From the NCBI GenBank assembly GCA_002720855.1, contig PBIN01000015.1:558001-622000 (forward strand): 64,000 nt of DNA. The letters run 5' to 3'. Below the pieces are notes generated by a model that was given only the letters and a program-made list of their open reading frames with translations, did not search any database and was not told where the DNA came from. The position numbers and the translations under genes are program-made. The stretch's first letter is position 1. The number at the start of each line of letters is the position of its first letter. Shown here one piece after another: positions 1,523 to 15,391 of this stretch. This stretch comes from Rhodospirillaceae bacterium (lineage in GTDB: Bacteria; Pseudomonadota; Alphaproteobacteria; MPNO01; UBA2964).

Positions 1523-2271
1523 AGGAAAAAGTGTGCGCAATTTTGCAGCCACATTATCTGCCGTGGTTGGGATATTTCGAAATGATTGATCGGGTCGATT
1601 TATTTGTATACCTCGACGACGTCCAATTTATTAAACGCGAATGGAAAAACAGAAACAAAATCCGTAAAACAGCCACAGCGACCGAGACGAAGTGGCTTAC
1701 CGTTCCAATCGACCGGGCAAGCCAACGGGGGCCCATAAACGAGGCCAAATTTTCGAATGCGGAGGACTGGGTTTCCAAGCACTTATCCGCGATCCGTGAA
1801 ACCTATGGTAAAACGCCTTACTACAATGACTACGGACCCAAGTTGGAAAATGCCTTGCGCAATTTTTCGACGTTATCCCTTGCGGAACTTAATATCGGTT
1901 TGTTGCGTGAGATTTGCGATTGGCTGGGTATCACGACGCAAGTGATTTGTTCATCAGAGCTGAACGTTACCGGAAAAAGAGAAGAAAAATTGAGAAATAT
2001 TTGTGTCGAGGTCGGCGCATCCAAGTACCTCGCCAATAATGCTACAGCGACCTATGTGGCGCCAGATTACTTTCAGGAGATGGGGATCGCATTTGAAACA
2101 CAAAGCTATTCGCATCCCAAATATGTTCAATCTCACCGTTCGGAACAGTTGCCCTTTTTGGAATTTCTGAGCATCGTCGATTTGCTGTTCAATCATGGCG
2201 ATGAAAGTCTTTCGGTAATTTGGCGGGGCCGGCCTCCAAAGGGCGCTGAATCAATTCAAGGTAATTCGTGA
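1519..2271 (+). CDS. WbqC family protein
   Basis: The 250-residue product starts with the WbqC-family signature: LQPHYLPWLGYFEMI, then FVYLDDVQF, then KNRNKIR, then WLTVPI. WbqC-like proteins occur in O-antigen and capsule loci next to unusual sugar-modification genes; their chemistry is not firmly established. The ATG overlaps the stop of the upstream cytidylyltransferase by 4 bp and its own stop overlaps the GTG start of the next gene by 4 bp, so the three are very probably translated as a unit. Length is typical for the family. Function beyond 'surface polysaccharide biosynthesis' is inference from context. Confidence 0.85.
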   Translation: MKEKVCAILQPHYLPWLGYFEMIDRVDLFVYLDDVQFIKREWKNRNKIRKTATATETKWLTVPIDRASQRGPINEAKFSNAEDWVSKHLSAIRETYGKTPYYNDYGPKLENALRNFSTLSLAELNIGLLREICDWLGITTQVICSSELNVTGKREEKLRNICVEVGASKYLANNATATYVAPDYFQEMGIAFETQSYSHPKYVQSHRSEQLPFLEFLSIVDLLFNHGDESLSVIWRGRPPKGAESIQGNS

Positions 2272-5200
2272 AAGCAATAGTTTTAGGTAATCGCCGGGGT
2301 GTCCGGCGCTTATCGGCGCAGCACAGCTATCCGTCCGCACTTAACGAGATTGGCGATAGCGGCCAGACTATGCTGGATTGGTCTTTGAGCGCATTTCGGA
2401 ATTGCAATGTAAAAGATGTGGTTTATGTCGGCGGTTACCATATCGAGAAAGTTGTAAAGGACTATCCGGATCTACATTTTTACTACCATGAAGACTGGGA
2501 AGCAGGATCAGACTTGCATGCGCTCCTAAAAGCGCGCGAGGAATTCAACGAAGACATTCTTGTCGTGACGACGGATATCGTCTTCCGCAAACCGGCAATT
2601 GACGCCATGGTCCAAGGGAAAACCATTACCACAGCAGCCAGTGTATCCTTCCAATCCCTTCCCTCAGGCCTTGTCGATGGGTTTCAAACCGTACCCGGTG
2701 CGTCAGACCGATTCTTCGGCGGCATGCTATTTATTCCCAAAAATCATACCGAGAACTTTATTGGTTTGTTGGAGGGTCTTTCCGAAACAGCGGAGAAAAC
2801 AACCCTACAGGATATAGCGGTCCGGTTACTGCAAAGTGCTACTGAGACATCTGACGTCGCGATTGACGGCCATTGGGCGGCACTTGTGGACAGTGCCAGC
2901 CTCGCTCAATTCGTTTTAGGGACAAAGGGACAGACGCTTGAACGTTTTAGGCCAATGGTGCGCCATAGCAAAATTTTGCCGCACATCACGTTCCCCATCG
3001 ATTCTTGGCAAAGCAACCCGCAAGAGATCTTAAAAAATGTTTCAAGCCAATGTGGTAATGGGCCACTTGTTGTCCGCAGTAGTACTTCGACAGAAGATTC
3101 CTGGAGCTCGTCCCACGCCGGAAGTTTTCATTCTGAATTGAACGTTGATGGCAGCGATAGCGCCAAAGTCGCGAAATCCATCGATAAGGTTTTTGCCAGC
3201 TACGCGAAAGCAGGGTCGCAAAGCGACAAAGACGAAGTATTGGTACAACCATATCTAAATAACGTTTCCGTCAGCGGTGTCTTGTTCACACGAGATGGCA
3301 CCACAGGCGCTCCCTACTATATCATCAATTTTGATCGCCTAAGCCGCCGAACGGATACCGTTACTTCAGGAACGGGAACACAGATCGAAACATTCGTGAC
3401 AGCAAAAGATTCTGACACGACGAAACTCGATGGTTGGCGTCAGGAGTTGATAATTGCCGTTCGCGAGATCGAAAGTTTACTGGCATACGACACGCTGGAT
3501 ATTGAATGGGCGATTAATGATGAGGGGGCTTTGTATTTGTTACAGGTCCGACCACTCATAATAAAACACGGTAAGACGATAGCAGATGACGATTTCAAAG
3601 CCGAAATCAAAACAGCAAAGGAATTTGTAGAAGCGATAAGTCGGCCAACCCCCTATGTGCTGGGGCAAAAGACTTTGTTAGGCGAAATGCCGGACTGGAA
3701 TCCCGTAGAAATGATTGGCGGCAGCCCCAAGCCTCTGGCTCTGTCGTTATATCAAACACTCATTACAGATTCAGCCTGGGCGAAAGCACGGCACCTTTGT
3801 GGCTATCGTGATGTACGGCCCGAACCTCTTTTATACGCCCTTAGCGGTAAACCGTTTATCGACGTGCGTGTCAGCTTCAACTCTTTACTTCCTGCCGACC
3901 TTCCAGATGAGTTAGCAGAGCCATTGATCGAAGGCGCTGTTTCCTATTTAGCCGACAACCCCGAACTCCATGACAAGGTGGAGTTTGAAGTCATTCCCAA
4001 TTGTTATCTTTCGAATTTGGCTGAGAAGCTAGACAGTCCTGTAGGTGCTTACCTTGACGATGCGGCCAAAAAGCGAATCACGGAATTATTCAAGGATTTC
4101 ACTAGCGATTTTATCGAAGACGCAATAGGGGTAATGGACGCTCAGCACCTAGCCTTCAAAGAATTGGCAAAGCGAAGAAACGCTCGATCAACACAGACGG
4201 GTATTTTTGGCGATATCGCGTGTATTCGGGGCTTAGTTGCTGATTGCGTTCGATATGGAACCGTTCCGTTTTCGGTTCTCGCGAGATATGGGTTCGTCGC
4301 AATTGCAATTCTTCGCGACCTCGCCAAGAACGGAATTCTTACAAATAGAGAACATGACGAATTTCTAAGTCATATTCCAACTATTGCGACTAAGATCAGC
4401 GCGGACCTGAGAGCGTTTCAATCGGGCGAATTGGAAGCTAAAGATTTTGTAAGTCGATACGGTCACCTGAGACCAGGTAGCTACGATATTACCGCTCCTA
4501 CGTACAAGGACATGGCGGAGGCGGGTAATTTCACAGGCAACTCAGTCAATACAGAGATGGAAGCGGAGACAGGCGATATCTCACATGCGCAGGCAATTTG
4601 GGACAACAGGTCATCGGAAATTGATCGGTTCTTGAAACAAAACGGAATGACTTTCACCTCAGCGACGCTGTTTAACTTTATTGTGAAAGCCGTGCCTAAC
4701 CGGGAATTAGGAAAATTTGAATTTACTAAAAGTTTAGCGGAAATACTTGAGCGAACGGCTTCATTCGGCGAAGCCCTTGGCTTTTCCAGGGAAGATATTG
4801 CCTATACTTCAATTGACACGCTCTTAAGACTTGGCTCATCCAATATGCATTCTGTCCTTAAGGAGGAATTATCCCGCTCAATAAATTATGAGAAAAAACG
4901 TCATAGCATCACGCAGGCGATAAGATTGCCACCGTTGATTGGCGCATCTGAGGACATTTCTGCGTTCAATATTCGGGAAGCGCGGCCCAATTTTGTCACC
5001 CAAAACAAAGCGGAGGGTGCGCCGGTTCTACTCAGCTCGGAAAGTAAGGCAATGGATTTGAACGGCAAGATCGTTGTACTGGAAGCCGCTGACCCCGGTT
5101 GCGATTGGATATTTTCTCATAGTCTTGCCGGCCTTATCACCAAGTACGGTGGTAGCGCATCACATATGGCAATAAGGTCCGCCGAATTTGACCTTCCTGC

Positions 5201-5297
5201 AGCGATTGGATGCGGTGAAATAATATACAATAGAGTACAGAACGCATCGTACGTTGTACTCAATTGCGAGAATCAGACGATACATGCGGAAAACTAA
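2268..5297 (+). CDS. Predicted L-glutamine kinase (Cj1418/PEP-synthase-like) fused to an N-terminal nucleotidyltransferase-like domain
   Basis: This 1009-residue protein has three parts. Residues 1-~235 have the shape of a sugar nucleotidyltransferase (MKAIVLG start, later YVGGYHIEKV and TTDIVF), but the glycine-rich NTP loop reads GNRRGVRR, so it may be catalytically altered. Residues ~255-440 are the ATP-grasp half of the PEP synthase family (VVRSSTSTEDS, VLVQPYL, LDIEWAINDEG, LLQVRPL). The last ~80 residues are the phosphohistidine domain, KYGGSASHMAIRS with His966. In Campylobacter jejuni a PEP-synthase homologue, Cj1418, phosphorylates the amide nitrogen of L-glutamine with ATP. The next three genes match the other Cj1415-1417 families, so glutamine kinase is preferred over true PEP synthesis. 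Starts at GTG overlapping the preceding stop. Confidence 0.75.
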   Translation: MKAIVLGNRRGVRRLSAQHSYPSALNEIGDSGQTMLDWSLSAFRNCNVKDVVYVGGYHIEKVVKDYPDLHFYYHEDWEAGSDLHALLKAREEFNEDILVVTTDIVFRKPAIDAMVQGKTITTAASVSFQSLPSGLVDGFQTVPGASDRFFGGMLFIPKNHTENFIGLLEGLSETAEKTTLQDIAVRLLQSATETSDVAIDGHWAALVDSASLAQFVLGTKGQTLERFRPMVRHSKILPHITFPIDSWQSNPQEILKNVSSQCGNGPLVVRSSTSTEDSWSSSHAGSFHSELNVDGSDSAKVAKSIDKVFASYAKAGSQSDKDEVLVQPYLNNVSVSGVLFTRDGTTGAPYYIINFDRLSRRTDTVTSGTGTQIETFVTAKDSDTTKLDGWRQELIIAVREIESLLAYDTLDIEWAINDEGALYLLQVRPLIIKHGKTIADDDFKAEIKTAKEFVEAISRPTPYVLGQKTLLGEMPDWNPVEMIGGSPKPLALSLYQTLITDSAWAKARHLCGYRDVRPEPLLYALSGKPFIDVRVSFNSLLPADLPDELAEPLIEGAVSYLADNPELHDKVEFEVIPNCYLSNLAEKLDSPVGAYLDDAAKKRITELFKDFTSDFIEDAIGVMDAQHLAFKELAKRRNARSTQTGIFGDIACIRGLVADCVRYGTVPFSVLARYGFVAIAILRDLAKNGILTNREHDEFLSHIPTIATKISADLRAFQSGELEAKDFVSRYGHLRPGSYDITAPTYKDMAEAGNFTGNSVNTEMEAETGDISHAQAIWDNRSSEIDRFLKQNGMTFTSATLFNFIVKAVPNRELGKFEFTKSLAEILERTASFGEALGFSREDIAYTSIDTLLRLGSSNMHSVLKEELSRSINYEKKRHSITQAIRLPPLIGASEDISAFNIREARPNFVTQNKAEGAPVLLSSESKAMDLNGKIVVLEAADPGCDWIFSHSLAGLITKYGGSASHMAIRSAEFDLPAAIGCGEIIYNRVQNASYVVLNCENQTIHAEN

Positions 5298-5302
5298 TTT
5301 GT

Positions 5303-5971
5303 ATGCGTTCTAAAATGAGGGTGGGTGTAACGATGCGCATTGTTGACGCGATCGATTACCACGACCCACGTGATGCGCTTAGCCATGAATGGATTCGCTT
5401 TATCGAAACTTTAGGGCACAGTCCAATCCTTATTCCCAGCGTGCTGGAAGATCCAGTTGCATTCTTTCAGTCCATAGAATGCGAAGGCCTAATTCTGACC
5501 AACGGGGAGAATGTAAAACTGGAGAGTTCAGCCGAAGGCTGGACGGGGTCGGAACGCGATATAACAGAAGCACGCCTATTGACCTTTTGCTTAGAGCGTA
5601 AAATTCCGGTGATTGGAGTTTGCCGCGGTTTGCAATTCATCAATATTTTTTACGGCGGTTCGCAACGCCCCGCGGAACAACCGCACGTTAACGTAGAACA
5701 CACAATCAATATAATAGACCCCGAATTCCGTGAAGCGTTGCAGATCGAGGAAGCGGTCACGAATTCCTATCATCAGATAGTTGTCGCGCCAGACGATATT
5801 GCGACGACATTAATTCCGTTTGCGATTTCGGATGGTGTTATCGAAGGGCTGTATTCAAAAAGTGACCGCGTACTAGCCGTCCAATGGCACCCAGAGCGTC
5901 AAAATCGAAGCCCCAACATCGATAGGATATTGTTCAATAATATTCTATCAACCGATGCCCGGTCGTTTTGA
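5303..5971 (+). CDS. Predicted gamma-glutamyl-CDP-amidate hydrolase (Cj1417-like, peptidase C26/class I amidotransferase fold)
   Basis: A class I glutamine-amidotransferase-fold hydrolase of the PuuD/C26 type. The nucleophile elbow GVCRGLQ carries the catalytic Cys (codon at 5621), and AVQWHPERQ supplies the His and Glu of the triad. The start is ATG 5303 or, more like relatives that begin K/R-V-G, ATG 5315; a longer frame from 5264 would overlap the upstream gene by 34 bp and is not preferred. In C. jejuni the homologous Cj1417 splits CDP-L-glutamine into cytidine diphosphoramidate and glutamate. Here it sits between the glutamine kinase and cytidylyltransferase homologues, which supports the same role. 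A gamma-glutamyl-GABA hydrolase role cannot be excluded from sequence alone. Confidence 0.75.
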   Translation: MRSKMRVGVTMRIVDAIDYHDPRDALSHEWIRFIETLGHSPILIPSVLEDPVAFFQSIECEGLILTNGENVKLESSAEGWTGSERDITEARLLTFCLERKIPVIGVCRGLQFINIFYGGSQRPAEQPHVNVEHTINIIDPEFREALQIEEAVTNSYHQIVVAPDDIATTLIPFAISDGVIEGLYSKSDRVLAVQWHPERQNRSPNIDRILFNNILSTDARSF

Positions 5972-6780
5972 ATTTACCTCGCCTTATTATTTTAGCAGCC
6001 GGACAGGGTACACGGTTACGACCGCTGACCGACTCGCGACCGAAATGCATGGTGGAGATTCACGGCAAGCCCCTCATTCAATGGCAAGTGGAAACCGCAA
6101 GGGCGGTGGGAATTCAGGATATCACAATCGTGTCAGGCTATCGCGCCGATTCGATAAGCGTTGAGGGTGTCCGGTATGTCCAGAATCCTCGATATGCAGA
6201 AACAAATATGGTTCGAACGTTGTTTTGCGCAGAGTTCCATTTTGGAGATCCGCTCATTGTTTCTTATGGCGACATTTTATATGAACCCAAGGCTCTGAAA
6301 CAGCTTATGGATTCGAATCACCCGGTCGGTGTCATCGTCGATACCGAATGGCTTTCATATTGGGAATCCCGATTTGAAAATGTTTTGGAGGACGCCGAAA
6401 CGTTGAGATTGGATGACGCAGGCGCAATTGTCGATATAGGTCAAAAACCGAAAACGATTGAAGAAATTAGCGGCCAATATATCGGCCTTATGAAATTTTC
6501 CGGAGACGGCCTCAAACAACTTTGCGATGCGTACACAAGTGAACTATCAGCATACGAGCGCGGTGAGAGTCACATTTGTAAAGAACGTAATCTCGATCAA
6601 CTCTATATGACAGATCTCTTGCAGGGGCTGATCGATTTGGGCAACACAGTTTCAGCGGTGCCAATTAGTGGTGGTTGGGTAGAAATAGATTTTCCGCAAG
6701 ATTTAACTTTAGCTCAAAAATACATTGATCCATCTGATGTGCCCTTAAAAATTTCACGATCGTACGCGACGGGCGACTGA
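5968..6780 (+). CDS. Predicted CTP:phosphoglutamine cytidylyltransferase (Cj1416-like nucleotidyltransferase)
   Basis: A 270-residue NTP_transferase protein. It has the full nucleotide loop LAAGQGTRLRPLT followed by RPKCMVEI, and a metal-binding Asp in VSYGDILYEP. The family includes LicC-type cytidylyltransferases and Cj1416, which adds CMP to phosphoglutamine. The start is TTG 5968, overlapping the preceding TGA in TTGA, an arrangement repeated in this cluster. The next gene begins 2 bp after the stop. The catalytic motif is intact here, unlike in the N-terminal domain of the 2268-5297 protein, so this is likely the active cytidylyltransferase of the pathway. Alternative: a sugar-1-phosphate or choline-phosphate nucleotidyltransferase. 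Confidence 0.75.
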   Translation: MNLPRLIILAAGQGTRLRPLTDSRPKCMVEIHGKPLIQWQVETARAVGIQDITIVSGYRADSISVEGVRYVQNPRYAETNMVRTLFCAEFHFGDPLIVSYGDILYEPKALKQLMDSNHPVGVIVDTEWLSYWESRFENVLEDAETLRLDDAGAIVDIGQKPKTIEEISGQYIGLMKFSGDGLKQLCDAYTSELSAYERGESHICKERNLDQLYMTDLLQGLIDLGNTVSAVPISGGWVEIDFPQDLTLAQKYIDPSDVPLKISRSYATGD

Positions 6781-6782
6781 GA

Positions 6783-7292
6783 ATGATAGTTTGGTTAATT
6801 GGTTTATCTGGCTCAGGCAAAACCACTATAGGTAATGCGTTATATGAAGAGCTGAAGACCAAACATAAAAATACCGTCTTCTTAGACGGGGATGTTTTTA
6901 GAAATATTATGGGAAACGACCTTGGTCACAGCGAAGAGGATCGATTAAAAAACGCGCACCGCGTTTCTCATTTTTGCAAATACATGGACGATCACGGAAT
7001 AAACGTGGTGGCCGCTATATTGTCTTCCTTTCCAGAATGGCAAAAATGGAATCGGGATAACTTTCATCAATATTTCGAGGTATTTGTCGATACATCGATG
7101 GATACGCTCGAGAAACGGGATATAAAAGACTTGTACAGAAGGGCCCATAAGGGCGAAATCAAAAACGTCGTAGGCGTCGATATTCAATTCCCGATACCAA
7201 ATGCGGACCTGACCATCGATAACAACGAGAACCTGCTCGATATCAGTCCACAGGTACGAAAAATTATTGCTGCTTTACCTGAATTTACGTAA
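6783..7292 (+). CDS. Predicted cytidine diphosphoramidate kinase (Cj1415-like; APS-kinase family)
   Basis: A short (169-residue) APS-kinase-fold protein: P-loop GLSGSGKTT at residues 7-15, FLDGDVFR at ~33-40, EVFVDTSMDTLEKRD, then LYRRAHKGEIKN. The length is near that of Cj1415, the C. jejuni enzyme that phosphorylates the 3'-hydroxyl of cytidine diphosphoramidate. The APS-kinase stretch RSDRD is replaced by FPEWQKWNRD, which hints at a different substrate, though I could not align it. No ATP sulfurylase (CysD/CysN) is in view. Alternative: a genuine adenylylsulfate kinase supplying PAPS to the three sulfotransferase-fold proteins downstream. Context favours the phosphoramidate role. Confidence 0.72.
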   Translation: MIVWLIGLSGSGKTTIGNALYEELKTKHKNTVFLDGDVFRNIMGNDLGHSEEDRLKNAHRVSHFCKYMDDHGINVVAAILSSFPEWQKWNRDNFHQYFEVFVDTSMDTLEKRDIKDLYRRAHKGEIKNVVGVDIQFPIPNADLTIDNNENLLDISPQVRKIIAALPEFT

Positions 7293-7298
7293 ACCAAG

Positions 7299-8564
7299 AT
7301 GATACTCTTGGGCTACGTTGCAATTTCCGTTATCGGAATTGTACTACTCGAAATTTCGACCGGCGCACTTATAAAGTACCTGCGAGCGCATTTTCAATGG
7401 CTTATCACAGGCGCTGATGAAAACCCGCGATTGGACAAAGACGCTCTGGAGAAATTTTTCAATAGCAGCTATGACCACGAACTCGGATGGGTTCGCCGAC
7501 CCAACACAACCGGCCATGAAAAAAGCCGTTCGGGCGATACGAGTTTTGAAATTGGACCCGACGGTTCTCGCGTTACACCCAATTTCAAAATGTTACCTGC
7601 ATCAATATCCTGTTACGGAGATTCATTTACATTTTGTCGACAGGTAAATGATGACGAGACCTGGCCGTACTTCCTATCAGGTAAAATTGGTTCTCGGATA
7701 CAAAACTTTGGCGTCGGCAATTATGGGATGGATCAGGCGCTGCTGCGGCTCAAACGGGAATACCCCCAAAACCCTACACCGGTCGTTGTTCTTGCAATTG
7801 TTCCCGAGACTATCACGCGTGTCTTGAGTGTTTGGAAACATTACTCAGAATACGGAAACACTTTCGCTTTTAAGCCCAGATTTTTTCTCCGGAACAACCA
7901 CCTTGAATTATTTTCGAATTTGGCAGATAAGCCCGAGAAATACTTCGAACTGGAAACACTGTTGCCTTCCGCGAGAAAGAACGACGAGTTCTATCTATCA
8001 AAGTTTCGTAAAGACATTTTGACATTCCCGTACTTGATATCCTTCACGCGTTCCATACGGCGTAGTCTGCCCTTAATCACGGCCTTATGTCTCAAACATA
8101 TATATAAGGCGTTTGATATTTATTCGAACTATGAAGCGGCGTTGTTCAAGAAATTTGTGCTAAATCGAAATATTGCGCTAAGCGCAAAGTTGTATCGCAA
8201 GATTGAAAATGAAAATCTGCTCATTGCTATTCTCAGGGGGTTTGTGGAGTTTTGTACCGCTCAAGGAGCGAAGCCGATCTTTATGATGCTGCCCCAGCTA
8301 ACAGATATCGAATATATCGTGGACACCGAGGACTATTATTACGAGAAATTTATGAAGCGGGCGTGTGAGATGTTGCCCTGCCTCGATTTGGCCCCCCAAG
8401 TATTAGCTTTAGAAAAGCATTCTCAGTTTTATTCCGATGACCGTTACGGAGGCCACTTCAACAAACACGGCAATGCACTAGTCGCAGACACTCTCTTTGA
8501 CTTCCTTCAATCTTTGGAGCTCTCTGAATTGACTATTCACCAAAATCAGGACGGGACAGCATGA
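7299..8564 (+). CDS. SGNH/GDSL-like membrane-anchored protein
   Basis: A 421-residue protein with an N-terminal hydrophobic helix (residues ~2-25) and an SGNH-hydrolase core. CYGDSFTF gives block I with candidate nucleophile Ser109, GVGNYGMDQ resembles block II (Gly/Asn), and GGHFNKHGN near the C-terminus supplies the His block. Proteins of this type in glycan clusters act as O-acyl esterases or acyltransferases at the cell envelope. It begins 6 bp after the APS-kinase-like gene and overlaps the following sulfotransferase-fold gene by ATGA, so it probably belongs to the same operon. Whether it hydrolyses or transfers an acyl or phosphoramidoyl group is unknown. Confidence 0.65.
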   Translation: MILLGYVAISVIGIVLLEISTGALIKYLRAHFQWLITGADENPRLDKDALEKFFNSSYDHELGWVRRPNTTGHEKSRSGDTSFEIGPDGSRVTPNFKMLPASISCYGDSFTFCRQVNDDETWPYFLSGKIGSRIQNFGVGNYGMDQALLRLKREYPQNPTPVVVLAIVPETITRVLSVWKHYSEYGNTFAFKPRFFLRNNHLELFSNLADKPEKYFELETLLPSARKNDEFYLSKFRKDILTFPYLISFTRSIRRSLPLITALCLKHIYKAFDIYSNYEAALFKKFVLNRNIALSAKLYRKIENENLLIAILRGFVEFCTAQGAKPIFMMLPQLTDIEYIVDTEDYYYEKFMKRACEMLPCLDLAPQVLALEKHSQFYSDDRYGGHFNKHGNALVADTLFDFLQSLELSELTIHQNQDGTA

Positions 8565-9673
8565 AACCGGAAAAGAGGCTTTTTCTGACCGGTACAATGA
8601 GAACGGGTGGATCGCTGTTAATCACGATGCTATCTGCCCATTCGAAGATACTAATATTAAATGAACGCGTTCACTTTTTTCGCTTTGTGTATGACAGGTA
8701 CAACCCGCTAAACGCCGAGAACACCGAACGATTATTACGCAAACAAGCTGCTAGGTTGCGGCACCGAAACAATGCGGATTTCGACGTGGACGGAATTTTT
8801 AGGGCCATCCAGAGACGCGGTTTTACATATAAAAATATATACGATGAAATGATGTGTCATTTCATGAAGATGGCAGACCGATCAATTTGGGGGGAATTTG
8901 CGGCCCTTCAATGGCGTGAAATTCCGATCTATTTGGATTTATTTCCCGCCGGAAAAGCGATCCATATGTATCGTGATCCGAGAGGTGTTCTCTCATCCTG
9001 GAAAAAGCTCAGCTCGATTCCAAACAACGCCTATCTGAATGCGATTTTTAACTGGGTCGATAGCGCCAACCACGTAAAGCACTATCAGGAAACACTCGGG
9101 AAAGATCGTTACTATGCCGTACGCTATGAAGACATAATGGCTGATCCCGAAAAGGAAGTGCGGTCTATTTGTCAGTTTATCGATGTCGAATTCGAACCGG
9201 AGCTTATGCAACCTGAAACATGGCCCGAGCGCTTCAACACCAGTCTCGTAAAAGTACCGCGATCGGCCCATGAGGGATCGGGAATTCTCGGGTTTAGCAC
9301 ACAGCGGACAGATAATTGGCGAAAACATCTCGAAAATTGGGAGCTCGCTCTCGTTGATGTTTTAGCAGGCTCGCAAATTGCAGATGCGGGATATTCACAG
9401 GCTCAGAAAGCCTACACTCCCGATGAATTCCAAAAGGGCCTTACTTTAATGCAGCAAAATCCGCTTTTGCTTGAAAACTTAATCACCTTTCTTACAACGG
9501 GACAGGGCGTAGACACCTATCCGATGGATCCCACTGACCCGAATAGTTGGGGCGCCCCTCACAATCCCAGTGAATGGTTTACAGAAAGTCCTGCGGCCGA
9601 GCCCTATTTCCGGGATTTGGAAAAAATCGAAGAATATCTAAACAAAAAGTACAACGAACAATCCGCTTTATGA
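8561..9673 (+). CDS. Sulfotransferase-fold protein 1
   Basis: A 370-residue member of the P-loop sulfotransferase superfamily. The 5'-phosphosulfate-binding loop appears as GTMRTGGSLL (residues ~11-20) and the 3'-phosphate-binding motif as YRDPRGVLSSW. VRYEDIMADPEKEV is the conserved segment that follows in this superfamily. It starts at ATG overlapping the SGNH gene by 4 bp. Known members move sulfate from PAPS to glycans. Because the cluster appears to make a 3'-phospho-CDP-amidate, a PAPS-like donor, transfer of phosphoramidate is a serious alternative. The acceptor is unknown. Confidence 0.75.
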   Translation: MKPEKRLFLTGTMRTGGSLLITMLSAHSKILILNERVHFFRFVYDRYNPLNAENTERLLRKQAARLRHRNNADFDVDGIFRAIQRRGFTYKNIYDEMMCHFMKMADRSIWGEFAALQWREIPIYLDLFPAGKAIHMYRDPRGVLSSWKKLSSIPNNAYLNAIFNWVDSANHVKHYQETLGKDRYYAVRYEDIMADPEKEVRSICQFIDVEFEPELMQPETWPERFNTSLVKVPRSAHEGSGILGFSTQRTDNWRKHLENWELALVDVLAGSQIADAGYSQAQKAYTPDEFQKGLTLMQQNPLLLENLITFLTTGQGVDTYPMDPTDPNSWGAPHNPSEWFTESPAAEPYFRDLEKIEEYLNKKYNEQSAL

Positions 9674-9727
9674 ATCCCGTTAAAGACATTTTGCGGATTA
9701 TTCTCGCTCTCAAAACATAGAACAGAC

Positions 9728-11566
9728 ATGAGTAAAAAAAGTTTTACCGTCCTTTCGATGTATGAGGTCCATGTGGCCTCCGCAGCGCTAATGGTGGATG
9801 GCGTTGTAAAAGCCGCAGCACATGAGGAACGATTTACTCGTATCAAGGCCGACGTCGGTTTTCCGCTCAAAGCGGCCCAGTTTTGTATCGAAGAAGCCGG
9901 TATTGACCCCGCCGAAATTGATGTAGTCGCCATATCGAACGAGTGGTTCGACATTAATGGGCTAACAAATATTTTATTCAAGCGACCGGCACTTTATTCG
10001 ATTGACGATTGGATTAGAGAGAATGAGTTGTTCTGGAAACCCCGCCTCATAGAGGGAAAATCTCTCGCCAGCTACTTCGACGTTATGGGCGGATGGGACC
10101 GGGTTGAGGACCATCACTACGATTTGCGCGATATCGACATGACGGCGTCGAACGACACTATAAAATCCACCTTCAATCAAATTCGGCGCGATACGGTTGA
10201 ACGGCTGTTGGGGGTACCCAAAGACAGGGTGACTTTCATGCCGCACTATATGTTGCATCACTATCACGCTTACTATTCGGGCAATCTGCGCGGCGACGAT
10301 GTCGTCGTTGTGCATCAGGAAGGGGATGGCGGTGCCTGCAACTCGGCTGTTTCGATTCCCACTAAAAATGGTCTCAAGCAGATAGGAGGGACAAACAAAA
10401 GCGATCTCGGGCGCCTTTACCAATGGTGTACGCTGCTCATGGGAATGAAGCCCTATCATCACGAATATAAGATCATGGGTTTGGCGCCGTATGCGACAGA
10501 GTATGAGGTCAAAAAATCTCTGAAGGTTTTTCAAAGACTTTTCAAAGTCGAAACCGAAACGCTTTCGGTCATTTATGATCAGAAACCGAAGGATCTTTAT
10601 TTCAATTTCCTCGATAAATTTCGCGGACATCGATTTGACGGAATCGCAGGGGCACTTCAGCAACTGATCGAGGAAAAATTGTCGGAATGGCTTTCGCTGG
10701 TACTACGAGAAACCGGCAAACATCAGGTCTGTTATGGCGGCGGTGTCGCCATGAATGTCAAAGCGAACATGCTTCTTTCACAGCTCGAGAACGTAGATGA
10801 TTTTTATGTTCCCCTATCGCCAGGCGACGAAACAAATGTTTTTGGCGCTGGCTATTGGGCCACAGAACAACACTTCATCAAAAATGGACGGGACCCTGAG
10901 GAAATTCCACCACTGGACAACGTATATCTTGGGCCGCGTTATAGTCGCCGCTCGATCATAGCTGCCGTCGATAAAATTAATATCAAGGCAAACGGATTTT
11001 CAGTAACTGAAGGAGTGAAAAATTCCGATATTGCAACTTCTCTGTCGGAGGGAAAAGTTATTGGCCGATTCCAGGGAAAAAGCGAATACGGCCAGCGATC
11101 ACTTGGAAACCGGTCGCTTTTGGCAAACCCTTCAGCGCCAGGTGTGGTCGATAAAATCAACAGCCAGATCAAATACCGTGACTTTTGGATGCCGTTTTGC
11201 CCGACGATTTTGGACAGTTATGCTGAAAAATGCCTCGAGAACCCGAAAAATATTTCGGCTAAGTTCATGACTATCTGTTTTCCGGTTCGAAACGAATATC
11301 GAGACCGCATGGCGGGCGGGATACATAGCGGAGACGGAACCGCACGACCGCAAATTATAGAAAAATCCACAAATGCCGAGTATTACGATCTTATCGAGCA
11401 GTTTTCGGAAATCACCGGAACGGGTGCATTAATCAACACATCTTTTAATTTACACGGTGAGCCGGTTGTAGGTTCTCCTGACGATGCTCTCCATACGCTT
11501 CAAGACTCCGACTTGGACGCCGTTTGGATGGAAGACATTTTAGTCTCAAGGCAATCGCTCCCTTAA
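9728..11566 (+). CDS. NodU/CmcH-type carbamoyltransferase
   Basis: The 612-residue protein has the two-domain layout of the NodU/TobZ carbamoyltransferases. The N-terminal ASKHA-like domain contains HEERFTRIK and the metal-binding His cluster LHHYHAYYSG, followed by VVHQEGDGG. The C-terminal YrdC-like half has GRFQGKSEYGQRSLGNRS and YRDFWMPFCPTIL. These enzymes transfer a carbamoyl group from carbamoyl phosphate, through carbamoyl-AMP, to sugar hydroxyls. ATG 9728 follows a 54-bp gap after the sulfotransferase-fold gene. The family call is firm; the acceptor is inferred to be the surface glycan built by this cluster. Confidence 0.9.
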   Translation: MSKKSFTVLSMYEVHVASAALMVDGVVKAAAHEERFTRIKADVGFPLKAAQFCIEEAGIDPAEIDVVAISNEWFDINGLTNILFKRPALYSIDDWIRENELFWKPRLIEGKSLASYFDVMGGWDRVEDHHYDLRDIDMTASNDTIKSTFNQIRRDTVERLLGVPKDRVTFMPHYMLHHYHAYYSGNLRGDDVVVVHQEGDGGACNSAVSIPTKNGLKQIGGTNKSDLGRLYQWCTLLMGMKPYHHEYKIMGLAPYATEYEVKKSLKVFQRLFKVETETLSVIYDQKPKDLYFNFLDKFRGHRFDGIAGALQQLIEEKLSEWLSLVLRETGKHQVCYGGGVAMNVKANMLLSQLENVDDFYVPLSPGDETNVFGAGYWATEQHFIKNGRDPEEIPPLDNVYLGPRYSRRSIIAAVDKINIKANGFSVTEGVKNSDIATSLSEGKVIGRFQGKSEYGQRSLGNRSLLANPSAPGVVDKINSQIKYRDFWMPFCPTILDSYAEKCLENPKNISAKFMTICFPVRNEYRDRMAGGIHSGDGTARPQIIEKSTNAEYYDLIEQFSEITGTGALINTSFNLHGEPVVGSPDDALHTLQDSDLDAVWMEDILVSRQSLP

Positions 11567-11659
11567 ATTGCCTGAAGCGATGAATATTGATTTCTTCACT
11601 TGGTTAACGGGGAAAATCAGGCGTGTAGCGAAAAATCTATATTTTTTAGGAATGTTCTA

Positions 11660-12664
11660 ATGAATCTCCCAGCTCGGATAAGCTCACGCGTGCGGCGAGT
11701 TTTCACCGGCCAACCAAGCACTCGTTTGGTAGATCAATTTACGCGTCCTTTGGAGATCAACTCTTCGCAGACAAATGGCGGACCCGACAGCACGGTAAAA
11801 CGTCCAATTATAGCCTTTGGTACAATGCGTACAGGGACGACATTGCTGATGGATATGCTCTCAGCCCATCCTGACATATTTATTACGACCGGATCACCGG
11901 AGGGTGAAGACGTCGTAATGTGGGTAGAACTCGCCGGTGCGCTAATGGCAGGGGTTGGCAAAAGAAATGCTATTGGGCCTGTCGGGCACATGCATTGTCT
12001 GCCTATGGATGCCTCGGCAATTTCCGACGAACGTGCGGCGTTTGTCCATCAAGGTCTGCTAGAAAGATACCCGGAGGCACGACGCGATGGCATTCGCCTT
12101 CTAAATGCGAATACGCATCTCGGAAATAAATTGGGATTTGTGAATAAGATTTTTCCCGACGCCGATTTGATCTTTTTAACGCGCAATCCCTATGCAGTCG
12201 CTTCCAGTCTCAAGCGAAAATTACAGCAATTTCCAAATCTGATGTTTGAAGTGCCAGATGCCAAGAGCGGATGTTTGAACGTCTATCCGAGATATGGATG
12301 GAGTGGACTTCCAAAAGCGGTCAACATGCAAAACCCAAATTTCTTCGATCCAGATGATCCCAACTGCGTAAAAATATTTGCACGGTATTGGAAAAACACT
12401 GTCCTATACATTGAGGAACAGGCTGAGGCCTTAAACCTGCCGATATATAAATTACGATACGAAGATCTGGTTTCCAACCATCAAGACTCAATGGATAGGT
12501 TTCTTGGTCATTGTGGACTTTCGCCGTTTTCAGAATGGAAAACTCTTCCCATCGGTGGGGTAAATGAAGAACGCCTTTCTCAAATTGATCGCCGGGATAA
12601 AGATTTAATAAGAGACGAAATAGGTGATGTAATTGAAGCTTACGGATATGAGCATCCGGAATAG
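11660..12664 (+). CDS. Sulfotransferase-fold protein 2
   Basis: A sulfotransferase-superfamily protein. FGTMRTGTTLLMDMLSAHP is the 5'-phosphate loop and LTRNPYAVASSLKRKL the 3'-phosphate-binding motif; LRYEDLVSNH follows. I prefer ATG 11660 because AGGA lies 8 bp upstream and the product begins in the usual place; the frame is open from TTG 11600, which would add 20 residues. It resembles the 8561-9673 protein in both motifs (GTMRTG and LSAH), suggesting the two are related by duplication. Donor and acceptor are unknown; see the phosphoramidate alternative. Confidence 0.75.
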   Translation: MNLPARISSRVRRVFTGQPSTRLVDQFTRPLEINSSQTNGGPDSTVKRPIIAFGTMRTGTTLLMDMLSAHPDIFITTGSPEGEDVVMWVELAGALMAGVGKRNAIGPVGHMHCLPMDASAISDERAAFVHQGLLERYPEARRDGIRLLNANTHLGNKLGFVNKIFPDADLIFLTRNPYAVASSLKRKLQQFPNLMFEVPDAKSGCLNVYPRYGWSGLPKAVNMQNPNFFDPDDPNCVKIFARYWKNTVLYIEEQAEALNLPIYKLRYEDLVSNHQDSMDRFLGHCGLSPFSEWKTLPIGGVNEERLSQIDRRDKDLIRDEIGDVIEAYGYEHPE

Positions 12665-12683
12665 AGGTGCAAATACGGATTAG

Positions 12684-13481
12684 ATGGCACAAAACTCGAG
12701 ACTCAGTGTAACCGCGATCATTCCAACCCACCTTCGGGATGAATTATTGAAACGTGCGATTCAAAGCGTTGTTGATCAAGATTTCCCGCCGCTTGAAATT
12801 ATTGTTGTCGACGATACCAGCAGCTCGGATACGCGATCTATCGTAAAAGCTTTCGATAAGAATTCGCCGATGGACGTGATCTATATGGAACGAACCAACT
12901 ATAAGGAATCGTCCTCTCCCGCATCTATCAATATGGCAGCGGAGTCAGCCCGGGGTAATGTACTGGCAATATTGGACGACGATGACTATTGGGCAAAAAA
13001 TTATCTCTCGACCGTTATTGATCAATTGGATGGCGAGCCCGCTGACTTTGTCGTAACGGCAATGACGTATTTCAATGAGAAGGGAGAAACCTGGAACGGG
13101 AAGCTACTCCCTGATGATTACGATAAACGCGACTGGCTAGTTCGCAATCCGGGGATGGGCTGTTCTAATCTGGTGATCCGCCGCGATGTTTTTCTTGATG
13201 TCGGAGGGTTCGACGGACGTTTGTTCGTTTCCGGTGATCGCGATCTATTCATGAGGCTGATGAAATTTGGTGCGCGGCTGCATATCAATAAAAATAGACA
13301 GGTCTTAATCCAGAAGTTCGATATTGGCTTAAGTCGAGGAAAACCCTGGAGAATGATCAAGTCAAACCTGCGCCTGTACCGGAAATACGCTCTGCAGATG
13401 CCCATCGATCTCCATTACCGCAACTGGGTTAAATTCTTGGGATATACCAAAGCTGGTTTGCTATCGAAGACAGACGACTAA
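12684..13481 (+). CDS. GT2 family glycosyltransferase
   Basis: A 265-residue GT-A glycosyltransferase. It starts with VTAIIPTHLRDELLKRAI, has the nucleotide-binding IIVVDDTSSSD, and the metal-binding acid cluster LDDDDYW (DXD). GDRDLFMRL near residue 180 fits the acceptor-site ED motif region of GT2 enzymes. No membrane segment is seen, so it should act on the cytoplasmic face. It lies between two decoration genes in the same direction. Sugar specificity cannot be read from the sequence. Confidence 0.85.
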   Translation: MAQNSRLSVTAIIPTHLRDELLKRAIQSVVDQDFPPLEIIVVDDTSSSDTRSIVKAFDKNSPMDVIYMERTNYKESSSPASINMAAESARGNVLAILDDDDYWAKNYLSTVIDQLDGEPADFVVTAMTYFNEKGETWNGKLLPDDYDKRDWLVRNPGMGCSNLVIRRDVFLDVGGFDGRLFVSGDRDLFMRLMKFGARLHINKNRQVLIQKFDIGLSRGKPWRMIKSNLRLYRKYALQMPIDLHYRNWVKFLGYTKAGLLSKTDD

Positions 13482-13491
13482 CCGCTTTTAT

Positions 13492-14460
13492 ATGACTATT
13501 TTCGGCAAAATCAGGGCTCTCACGGTCAAACACTTTCGGCGTACGTTTCCGTCCTTTACGCGTTTCATCATGACGCGTTTAGTGGATATCAACGCTGATT
13601 CGAGTCGGTTTATCCGGTCTGAAATTCTCAGAACCGAAGTCGCCCGCATGCAACACGTGTTAAGGGATTTGCATTTTGACCAAGGACTACACGTCACTAA
13701 AGACGAAATCCATGTTGAATTTGAGGGAATATTTCTAAGCGCAGCCCGGAGCACCCGATATTATAAAGTTCCCAGAGGTCGCGACGGAAATGAGGGCAAA
13801 GCACTGGCTGAGTTTCTGGCTGACCACAATATTGTTGTTAATTCAATGGTCGATCTGGGGGCTAATTTCGGAGAAATAAGCCTTTACTTTGCAAAGAATT
13901 TTCCCGAAGCGAGCATACTCGCCATAGAAGCCTCGCCCGAAAATTATTCTGTATTACAGGAAAATATCGCAACGCAATTTTTTCGGACGGAGAATATTAC
14001 CGCTATCAACAAGGCGGTTTCAGATAAGCCCGGGGAAATAAATATTACAGCGGGCATGGGATCAGAGAATACAATTCTATTTAATGAAAATTTCGAAAAA
14101 AACTATCGCGGATACGAGCGAGGTATGGAAAAGGTAGCGGCGGATACCCTCGTCGATATTCTTAGCGACCATAACGTCCAAAATATTGATTTTCTCAAAG
14201 TCGATATCGAAGGTGCCGAACCATTGCTCTATGAATCTCTAGATACACTTCTAGCAAAAATTCGAGCGATATATATAGAAGTTAGCTGGCGCAATGATGC
14301 AGAGAAATATCTTCGACTTCTGCGAATGATATATGACCGCTCCGACTGTTACACAGCTGACGGCGCAAAAGTTTCCACCTTCGAATTACTAGAATCGCGT
14401 ATACATGCATTGGATACGAAAATCGGATTTGATTTGTGGTTTCTACCCAACTCCAAATAA
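13492..14460 (+). CDS. FkbM family methyltransferase
   Basis: A 322-residue S-adenosylmethionine-dependent methyltransferase of the FkbM type. VDLGANFGEISLYFA is motif I, LAIEASPENYSVLQENI carries the acidic residue that binds SAM ribose, and FLKVDIEGAEPLLYE is the family signature. FkbM enzymes O-methylate sugars or polyketide-type hydroxyls. It starts 10 bp after the GT2 gene. In C. jejuni the phosphoramidate is O-methylated by separate methyltransferases, so this gene is a candidate for methylating either the sugar or the phosphoramidate; that choice is inference. Confidence 0.85.
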   Translation: MTIFGKIRALTVKHFRRTFPSFTRFIMTRLVDINADSSRFIRSEILRTEVARMQHVLRDLHFDQGLHVTKDEIHVEFEGIFLSAARSTRYYKVPRGRDGNEGKALAEFLADHNIVVNSMVDLGANFGEISLYFAKNFPEASILAIEASPENYSVLQENIATQFFRTENITAINKAVSDKPGEINITAGMGSENTILFNENFEKNYRGYERGMEKVAADTLVDILSDHNVQNIDFLKVDIEGAEPLLYESLDTLLAKIRAIYIEVSWRNDAEKYLRLLRMIYDRSDCYTADGAKVSTFELLESRIHALDTKIGFDLWFLPNSK

Positions 14461-14476
14461 GGGCAGGGACTGCTAA

Positions 14477-15391
14477 GTGAAAACCATCCTTAGTCGAATT
14501 TTACGCCGTGCCCTTCGTTATATTGACCCGCCTCCGCCACCTCTGAAGTGGCGTGGGTTAGAAGACAATTGGACGAAGCCGGTTGGAAAAAAGTTGATTA
14601 TTGTAACTGGTGTCGGGCGCAACGGTGCTCACTGGGTTTCGAAAATTTTTGGTGAGCACGAAAATACCATTGGGCTGTCAGATCCTTGTTCATTTCATAC
14701 GGCTTTTTTCCGATACTGCGTTTGGAACGATCTACCGATCGATAGCGTGGGCACTTTCGTATTATTGCGGGCAGTGCTCTACGAGGCATGGGAAGAACAC
14801 GACGTTGTATGCATCGCATCACCTTACTTGGGAATTGGTATAAATATCGTCGACCGGTACTTACAGCCTGATGCTTTTATTCTGTCACTGCGTTCGCCTG
14901 AGAAGGTCGTTAGCTCAATGGCGAACAAGGGGTGGTATAATGAACCGGTCGTCAACGGCGGATTGAAGCCGACCACAGGTTTACAGCCAGCCTTTATGCC
15001 GCAACACAGACAGTTTTCCAGATTAACTCCACGTGGCAGCGAACTAGCCGATTGGCAAGATCTGACACCCGTAGGAAAATGCAGCTGGTATTGGAGTGCG
15101 TTAAATAAGCGAATCTACGCCGAATTATCCGAATTGCATCAATCAAGATTTCATCTGTATAAGCTAGCGGATGTCGATCAGAATCCCGCTTTCAATAAGA
15201 AATTAGAGGAATTGTTCGATCTCACGCCCATAAATGACCAGCAGTTCTTGAATCTGAAAAAAACGGCATCCAATGCTGGCCGAAAAAAAAGTACGGATGA
15301 CGGTTGGACCGAAACGGAAAAGTCAGAATTCCATAAAGGCATATCTGAATTTCATGAAACTTTTCAGAGTTTAAAGACAACGGTTCTTTAG
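14477..15391 (+). CDS. Sulfotransferase-fold protein 3 (divergent)
   Basis: A 304-residue protein starting at GTG 14477. IIVTGVGRNGAHWVSKIF matches the 5'-phosphate-binding loop in position and shape, but with NGAHW in place of SGTTW, and FILSLRSPEKVVSSMANKGW fits the 3'-phosphate-binding helix. It is more divergent than the other two sulfotransferase-fold proteins of the cluster. It follows the FkbM gene by 16 bp and precedes the deacetylase gene by 7 bp, so it is in the same transcription unit. Role in transfer of sulfate or phosphoramidate to the glycan is inferred. Confidence 0.6.
   Translation: MKTILSRILRRALRYIDPPPPPLKWRGLEDNWTKPVGKKLIIVTGVGRNGAHWVSKIFGEHENTIGLSDPCSFHTAFFRYCVWNDLPIDSVGTFVLLRAVLYEAWEEHDVVCIASPYLGIGINIVDRYLQPDAFILSLRSPEKVVSSMANKGWYNEPVVNGGLKPTTGLQPAFMPQHRQFSRLTPRGSELADWQDLTPVGKCSWYWSALNKRIYAELSELHQSRFHLYKLADVDQNPAFNKKLEELFDLTPINDQQFLNLKKTASNAGRKKSTDDGWTETEKSEFHKGISEFHETFQSLKTTVL

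Follow-up and report, generated by a model that had tools for sequence, protein, structure and literature searches.

Three sulfotransferase-like proteins, ST1, ST2 and ST3, follow a phosphoramidate cassette in a 64,000-nucleotide stretch of Rhodospirillaceae bacterium DNA (contig PBIN01000015.1; the whole stretch is called the window here). We consider it likely that at least one of ST1 and ST3 is a phosphoramidoyl transferase that uses 3'-phospho-CDP-amidate (CDP, cytidine diphosphate). ST1 is the best candidate judging from its sequence and surroundings, ST3 is also a candidate, and ST2 could belong with them or be a genuine sulfotransferase using 3'-phosphoadenosine 5'-phosphosulfate (PAPS). 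On a broader scale the evidence leans, somewhat less firmly, towards a second, widespread use of the sulfotransferase fold in bacteria and archaea, namely phosphoramidate transfer from 3'-phospho-CDP-amidate. This use would include the DUF2972 transferases of Campylobacter and would have ST1 and ST3 as two separate branches; the 3'-kinase would recruit the fold, and cassettes without that kinase would use CDP-glycerol- or CDP-alcohol-type transferases. Gene content, linkage, motifs and predicted folds are the observations from which we infer the donor, the chemistry and the acceptor.

A polysaccharide cluster opens the window, and the four-enzyme donor set comes first in it. The genes of this set and the three sulfotransferase-like genes are as follows.

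2268 to 5297, forward strand: glutamine kinase-like protein, with a C-terminal part of ~790 aa and an N-terminal stretch resembling nucleoside triphosphate (NTP) transferases (NF004508, 837 bits; PPDK_N, PEP-utilizers)
5264 to 5971, forward strand: glutamine amidotransferase (GATase) resembling gamma-glutamyl-CDP-amidate hydrolase (Peptidase_C26, 4.5e-25; NF045546, 81 bits, cut-off 250)
5968 to 6780, forward strand: MobA-like nucleotidyltransferase, the expected phosphoglutamine cytidylyltransferase (NTP_transf_3, 7.3e-16)
6783 to 7292, forward strand: kinase of the CDP-amidate-kinase type, in the adenosine 5'-phosphosulfate (APS) kinase family (PF01583, 1.1e-37)
8561 to 9673, forward strand: ST1, Sulfotransfer_3, 370 aa, ATG start (PF13469, 1.2e-25)
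11660 to 12664, forward strand: ST2, Sulfotransfer_3 (PF13469, 7.7e-20)
14477 to 15391, forward strand: ST3, divergent sulfotransferase-like protein, 304 aa, GTG start (motifs; hhalign 92.9)

The original prediction placed three open reading frames (ORFs) behind a 3'-phospho-CDP-amidate cassette, and both the positions of the frames and the completeness of the cassette hold. Glutamine kinase, hydrolase, cytidylyltransferase and 3'-kinase occur together, with the hydrolase below its NCBIfam cut-off. The NTP_transf_3 match in residues 31-116 of the first protein (26.2 bits) lies just below the cut-off of 27. The GATase gene may really start downstream of 5264, a position that overlaps the preceding gene. 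From these sequences the donor made by the cassette would be 3'-phospho-CDP-amidate, with the kinase at 6783 to 7292 as the enzyme that would make the 3'-phospho form.

ST1 and ST2 exceed the PF13469 cut-off, which places them in the sulfotransferase superfamily by profile, and they are the only PF13469 matches in the whole 3.58 Mb genome. The ST2 start at 11660 is an in-frame ATG, within an ORF that begins at a TTG at 11600. A Pfam scan up to E<=10 gives nothing for ST3. The 5'-side phosphate loop and the R-x-P...S motif are both present in all three proteins, in ST3 as TGVGRNGAHW at residue 44 and LRSPEKVVSS at 138, so that the predicted conservation of 3'-phosphonucleotide motifs is confirmed. 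We take these motifs to hold the 5'-side phosphates and the 3'-phosphate respectively, as in sulfotransferases. A two-sequence profile of ST3 aligned with the cassette sulfotransferase profile at an hhalign probability of 92.9 (E 3.7e-7), over 45 columns that cover the first motif only. A low-confidence model of ST3, built from two sequences (predicted local distance difference test, pLDDT, 49.7), has human TPST2 as its top structural match (Z 7.8), unrelated folds following at Z 7.0 and below, and a sequence search with ST3 returned no sulfotransferase. The fold claimed for all three proteins thus stands for ST1 and ST2 by family, and is probably shared by ST3.

That the sulfotransferase-like proteins would use 3'-phospho-CDP-amidate as donor is a proposal supported by linkage. 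The premise of our kinase test was that a sulfotransferase fold needing a 3'-phosphate should follow the kinase. The test covered 102 loci, read in six frames, with sulfotransferase frames counted within 10 kb. Such frames occur in 25 of the 70 loci with the kinase, versus 1 of the 32 without it (p 2e-4). CDP-glycerol-glycerophosphotransferase-like frames (PF04464) show the reverse, being over-represented in cassettes lacking the 3'-kinase (17/32 versus 13/70, p 8e-4). The two types seldom share a locus (1/26 versus 29/76, p 4.5e-4). PF04464 is another family, found near the same cassette, and its members would release cytidine monophosphate (CMP) from a CDP donor. In the subset of 66 loci flanked by over 6 kb in each direction, sulfotransferases accompany 17/47 loci with the kinase and 1/19 without (p 0.013). 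Once the window and the near-duplicates L080, L083 and L086 are excluded, the remaining 98 loci give 24/66 versus 1/32 for sulfotransferases and 11/66 versus 17/32 for the CDP-glycerol type. Three loci (L099, L107, L121) had been removed as duplicates of L030, L028 and L027; L035 and L080, whose contigs are equally long, are both in the 102-locus count, and L082, L083 and L086 appear alike in gene order. An earlier ORF-based count of 90 loci (19/47 versus 4/43) is superseded by the six-frame count, as the choice of ORFs lost genes under long antisense frames.

The background rate of sulfotransferases was also considered. PF13469 has 101 matches in 50 cassette genomes, 14 of which (12 genomes) overlap cassette loci, compared with 0.58 expected. 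These genomes represent 50 of the 52 loci of at least 19 kb, without L083 and L086; coordinates served to assign the 14 matches in cassettes to their contigs. We prefer the kinase test as the better control, because polysaccharide clusters attract sulfotransferases anyway.

The subtype of the kinase points in the same direction as its linkage. The window kinase is 41-45% identical to the kinases of three Campylobacterales cassettes (L132, L133, L136) and 38-39% to those of three others (L134, L137, L138). Within its own genome the values are 33% to the CysC domain and 31% to a second APS kinase. It reads LSSF where both genome APS kinases read ISPY/ISPF, and SP[YF], which we presume to be a mark of APS kinases, is also missing at this site from 68 of the other 69 kinase frames in cassette loci (the exception is L085), including 25/25 of the kinases in sulfotransferase loci. 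Six loci (L072, L074, L078, L081, L097, L119) encode a fusion protein in which the CDP-amidate-type kinase precedes the glutamine kinase, at its N-terminal end. The Campylobacterales cassettes also contain profile relatives of the nucleotidyltransferase at 5968 to 6780.

Relatives of the three proteins were sought in 97 sources, the window plus 96 loci with duplicates included; these comprise the best 80 of at least 558 loci around glutamine kinase relatives and 16 loci from genomes of the same class. An iterated ST1 profile has matches in 31 of the 97, the window and duplicates counted. Full-length ST1 relatives are found in the cassettes of L055 (33.5%) and L045 (31.5%), in both of which the gene order is glutamine kinase, hydrolase, nucleotidyltransferase, kinase, two small genes and then the ST1 relative; a partial relative lies at the edge of L100 (48% over 85 aa). 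The sole relative of ST3 (L043:13070-13981, 34%) is located between the hydrolase and the nucleotidyltransferase of its cassette. For ST2 the matches are weak and partial, none of the loci searched having a full-length relative linked to a cassette, and all six plasmid records that match it are Bradyrhizobium proteins (27%) annotated as sulfotransferases. ST3 has no plasmid relative at 1e-5. Phosphoramidate transfer had been proposed for all three proteins alike. It now has support for ST1 and ST3 from the predicted DUF2972 fold, the kinase linkage, the kinase subtype and the cassette-bound relatives, one of which is in a genome where sulfate activation was not found, but not alike for ST2.

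Some genomes with a cassette-linked sulfotransferase show no sign of making PAPS. We required the absence of CysN above its cut-off, of Sat at 1e-10 and of PF01507 at 1e-8. By these criteria sulfate-activation genes were not found in 5 of the 22 genomes that have a sulfotransferase-like neighbour in a first count: L045 (Nomurabacteria, candidate phyla radiation, CPR), L065 (Nanoarchaeota), L069 (Opitutia), L076 (an archaeon) and L101 (Legionella). The sulfotransferase match of L101 is weak and was excluded from later counts, which leaves four genomes. Most of these genomes are metagenome bins, so the absence is soft, and in L065 and L076 the hits to the CysN model (245 and 304 bits) were taken as EF-1-alpha by their length. 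To our knowledge, PAPS synthesis is not expected of small CPR and DPANN genomes.

The closest known system with this donor pathway, from glutamine kinase to 3'-phospho-CDP-amidate, is the O-methyl phosphoramidate (MeOPN) modification of Campylobacter jejuni, with the transferases Cj1421, Cj1422 and 06810. There Cj1415-Cj1418 turn glutamine, ATP and CTP into CDP-phosphoramidate 3'-phosphate, called the likely donor (PMC11800397). For the known TRANSFERASES, deletions of cj1421 and cj1422 remove the modification from N-acetylgalactosamine (GalNAc) and heptose (PMC11800397). The transferase 06810 ends in DUF2972 and is 83% identical to Cj1421/Cj1422 over residues 1-244 (PMC5808241). In the passages cited here, the capsule phosphoramidate has a known likely donor, and the evidence for the transfer step is gene deletion; the decoration step is named in a 2025 paper as work now made possible (PMC12409886). 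Among open-access papers, no link between these phosphoramidate transferases and sulfotransferases was found.

DUF2972 follows the cassette in this order. Across 149 Campylobacterales genomes, glutamine kinase is present in 8, DUF2972 in 6 and both in 5, so that DUF2972 occurs in 5/8 genomes with the glutamine kinase versus 1/141 without (p 5.8e-7). Among the DUF2972 copies there are some with broken frames or at a distance from the cassette. In two genomes (G416, G512) a Sulfotransfer gene is itself within the cassette, adjoining the kinase (L136) or a DUF2972 gene (L137). An alignment of 11 DUF2972 sequences shows a HGxGxxA loop and a nearly invariant R-D pair (R114-D115) inside a majority RDPIS, which we liken to the sulfotransferase 3'-phosphate motif.

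We modelled the DUF2972 domain of L132:5843-7045, residues 215-614 of a 614-aa protein that is labelled Cj1422-like on account of its position and a match to DUF2972, rather than from comparison with the Cj1421/Cj1422 sequences. The AlphaFold model has a pLDDT of 79 and a predicted template modelling score (pTM) of 0.75. When a Foldseek list against the PDB was re-checked with VIA-align, all 50 of the 50 rows shown were sulfotransferases (Z 10.4-8.9), counting the Teg12 and Teg14 rows, which we take to be sulfotransferases. The top row is 3-O-sulfotransferase 3 (Z 10.4, root-mean-square deviation 4.3, 216 residues), and the rows span most of the 400-residue model. The domain is therefore predicted to have a sulfotransferase fold. 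At the sequence level, ST1-ST3 differ from the Cj1421/Cj1422 type, with no significant similarity to DUF2972 proteins: PF11186 is not matched by ST1 or ST2 (E<=0.01) or by ST3 (E<=10), and the DUF2972 proteins scanned match no sulfotransferase family. A DUF2972 sequence search against the PDB returned an aldolase-labelled entry (0.0015) and heparan sulfate 3-O-sulfotransferase (0.12).

In the mechanism that we propose, ST1 and ST3 would most likely hold the 3'-phospho-CDP-amidate made by the cassette in the way that sulfotransferases hold PAPS, with the R-[DS]-P...S motif gripping the 3'-phosphate and the GxxRxGxxx loop gripping the diphosphate. Attack of a sugar hydroxyl on the terminal phosphorus would yield a phosphoramidate ester, with 3'-phospho-CMP as the other product. 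The Campylobacter DUF2972 transferases would act in the same mode with a very divergent sulfotransferase fold. The 3'-kinase step would be what fits the donor to this fold, while in kinase-less cassettes the CDP-glycerol-type transferases, commoner there, could use CDP-amidate directly. If this is true, the sulfotransferase fold of the transferases would explain the 3' phosphate of the pathway, and named active-site residues would become available. Some proteins annotated "sulfotransferase" that adjoin a glutamine kinase would be misnamed, and phosphoramidate-decorated glycans would reach far beyond Campylobacter, relatives of the glutamine kinase being present in at least 558 genome stretches.

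One alternative is that ST1, ST2 and ST3 are all ordinary PAPS sulfotransferases acting on the same glycan, with another protein of the cluster transferring the phosphoramidate; we regard this as unlikely. The family match of ST1 and ST2 and both motifs of all three are a likeness to PAPS-dependent sulfotransferases (Sulfotransfer_3, tyrosylprotein, heparan sulfate), and the profile of the cassette-linked sulfotransferases finds TPST1 at 3.9e-23. Polysaccharide clusters commonly contain sulfotransferases, and ST1-like proteins are also found away from cassettes. The original prediction leaned on the lack of CysD and CysN. These are missing from the window but not from the genome, where CysD (L026:4478-5293) and a CysN/CysC fusion (L026:5296-7164) lie on another contig (C7), and the argument fails because the genome itself makes PAPS. 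The reservation made at the time, that sulfation is possible with PAPS made elsewhere, is borne out by these genes. Upstream of the cassette, at 16-20 kb, an APS kinase also adjoins a protein of 732 aa that combines a pyruvate-kinase-like part with an ATP-sulfurylase part. The single PF01507 match of the genome is CysD, and no second one, which would be CysH, was found, so this PAPS may serve sulfation. It needs some consumer, and ST1 and ST2 are the sole PF13469 proteins there. PF03567 had no match in this genome or in four relatives, but the control of that scan matched nowhere either, which means that no absence follows from it. PAPS synthesis in the same genome is the main evidence against all three proteins being phosphoramidate enzymes. 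On the other side stand the kinase-dependent linkage and the kinase subtype. Unlike PAPS sulfotransferases in general, the cassette-linked ones adjoin a CDP-amidate-type kinase; four such genomes lack detected PAPS synthesis, among them that of the ST1 relative in L045, and the ST3 relative is inside a cassette.

Further results weigh against a phosphoramidate role as well. At least one sulfate-activation or PF01507 gene is present in 17 of the 22 sulfotransferase-cassette genomes, including that of L055, which holds the full-length relative most identical to ST1. No sulfotransferase was seen by the profile used in 45 of the 70 kinase loci. Phylogenetically independent pairs on the glutamine kinase tree run in the same direction as the kinase test without reaching significance (sulfotransferase and kinase: 3.2 for and 0.7 against, of 14 pairs), and the other tree-corrected counts (0.2 against 3.1; 0.7 against 3.5) go the same way as the locus counts and are too few for significance. 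In Campylobacterales, PF13469 does not co-occur with the cassette (2/8 versus 16/141, p 0.25). Foldseek alone returned the same family for the DUF2972 model at a best E of 0.01, with none at E<=0.001 and unrelated proteins among the rows, and hhalign of DUF2972 against the sulfotransferase alignment gave only 1.9%. Eleven plasmid records match ST1 at no more than 26% identity, most of them annotated as sulfotransferases; in one of these, from Nonomuraea (24%, profile E 2.1e-30), the 9 kb around the ST1-like gene contain no glutamine kinase. The ST1 profile matched 0/7 plasmid cassette loci, two of them with the kinase, and the Deltaproteobacterium Smac51 plasmid has the kinase and neither transferase type by the profiles used.

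A version of the phosphoramidate reading with mixed use, in which ST1 and/or ST3 transfer phosphoramidate and ST2 transfers sulfate from PAPS so that one glycan carries both groups, has a little short of an even chance in our estimate. It fits the sulfotransferase annotation of the ST2 plasmid relatives, the availability of PAPS and the missing full-length cassette-linked relative of ST2, although the shortage of relatives may be a matter of sampling. A likeness of ST2 to the Nod factor sulfotransferase NoeE is limited to a short motif match of 35 bits (cut-off 500) whose best stretch is 31 residues only, and the setting of ST2 differs in being a phosphoramidate cassette. The remaining possibility, which we hold to be very improbable, is that the transferase is the protein encoded between the kinase and ST1.

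7299 to 8564, forward strand: protein hydrophobic near its N-terminus, with blocks resembling SGNH hydrolases (both features by eye; no family over cut-off)

The SGNH-hydrolase-like label is a name that we assume for it. Its relatives are present in 10 of the 97 sources, counting itself and one duplicate contig, and adjoin the kinase or the glutamine kinase in L066, L089, L100 and L043, the last being the cassette that also has the ST3 relative. However, the hydrophobic N-terminus and hydrolase-like blocks suggest work outside the cytoplasm, where a nucleotide donor is not expected, and we know of no precedent for such a protein as a phosphoramidoyl transferase.

Plasmids add variants of both cassette types. 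There are 14 plasmid records with a glutamine kinase, of which 10 were inspected and 7 searched with profiles. Among kinase-less cassettes, a PF04464 protein is present in those of Vibrio alfacsensis, a PF04464 match just under the cut-off (21.2 versus 22.1 bits) in that of Roseovarius, and a CDP-alcohol phosphatidyltransferase (L173:13320-13982) in that of Agrobacterium vitis, which is perhaps a third type of phosphoramidoyl transferase. Annotated sulfotransferase genes lie near the plasmid cassette in Azospirillum lipoferum (two) and A. ramasamyi (one). In A. ramasamyi and A. lipoferum the CDP-amidate-type kinase forms the C-terminus of a protein of 838 or 846 aa (L168:5618-8134, L176:4617-7157), whose N-terminus contains a FIHFDLPRAAGDS stretch and a FVRNPFDWYVSSYYW stretch, both resembling sulfotransferase motifs, with 350 unassigned residues in the middle. 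If real, this fusion would unite the sulfotransferase fold and the kinase in one chain; its match to Sulfotransfer_2 (E 0.014) is below the cut-off and covers residues 83-140 only, which counts against it.

Two further plasmid stretches were noted. In Vibrio alfacsensis (L170:3671-7865), cysD, cysN and an SLC13 permease adjoin the cassette, with no kinase match in the stretch. In Cupriavidus taiwanensis (L172:8959-11301), a glutamine-kinase-like gene lies near nifK, and cassette partners were not detected. In the genome of the window, the stretch upstream of the cassette (L025:1715-6149) has a phosphoenolpyruvate (PEP) mutase fused to an NTP-transferase-like domain, next to the APS kinase and the 732-aa protein mentioned above. 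Two small families, one of ~231 aa without Pfam match and one of ~249 aa that is Formyl_trans_N-like, accompany the cassette in 34/90 and 39/90 loci (for example L045:14401-15842), and were not found in the part of the window tested.

Two other enzymes are encoded among the three sulfotransferase-like genes.

9728 to 11566, forward strand: NodU-type carbamoyltransferase (PF16861, 9.1e-57)
13492 to 14460, forward strand: FkbM-family methyltransferase (PF05050, 5.7e-13; TIGR01444, 4.1e-26)

For the FkbM-family protein, methylation of a sugar or of the phosphoramidate is a possible role.

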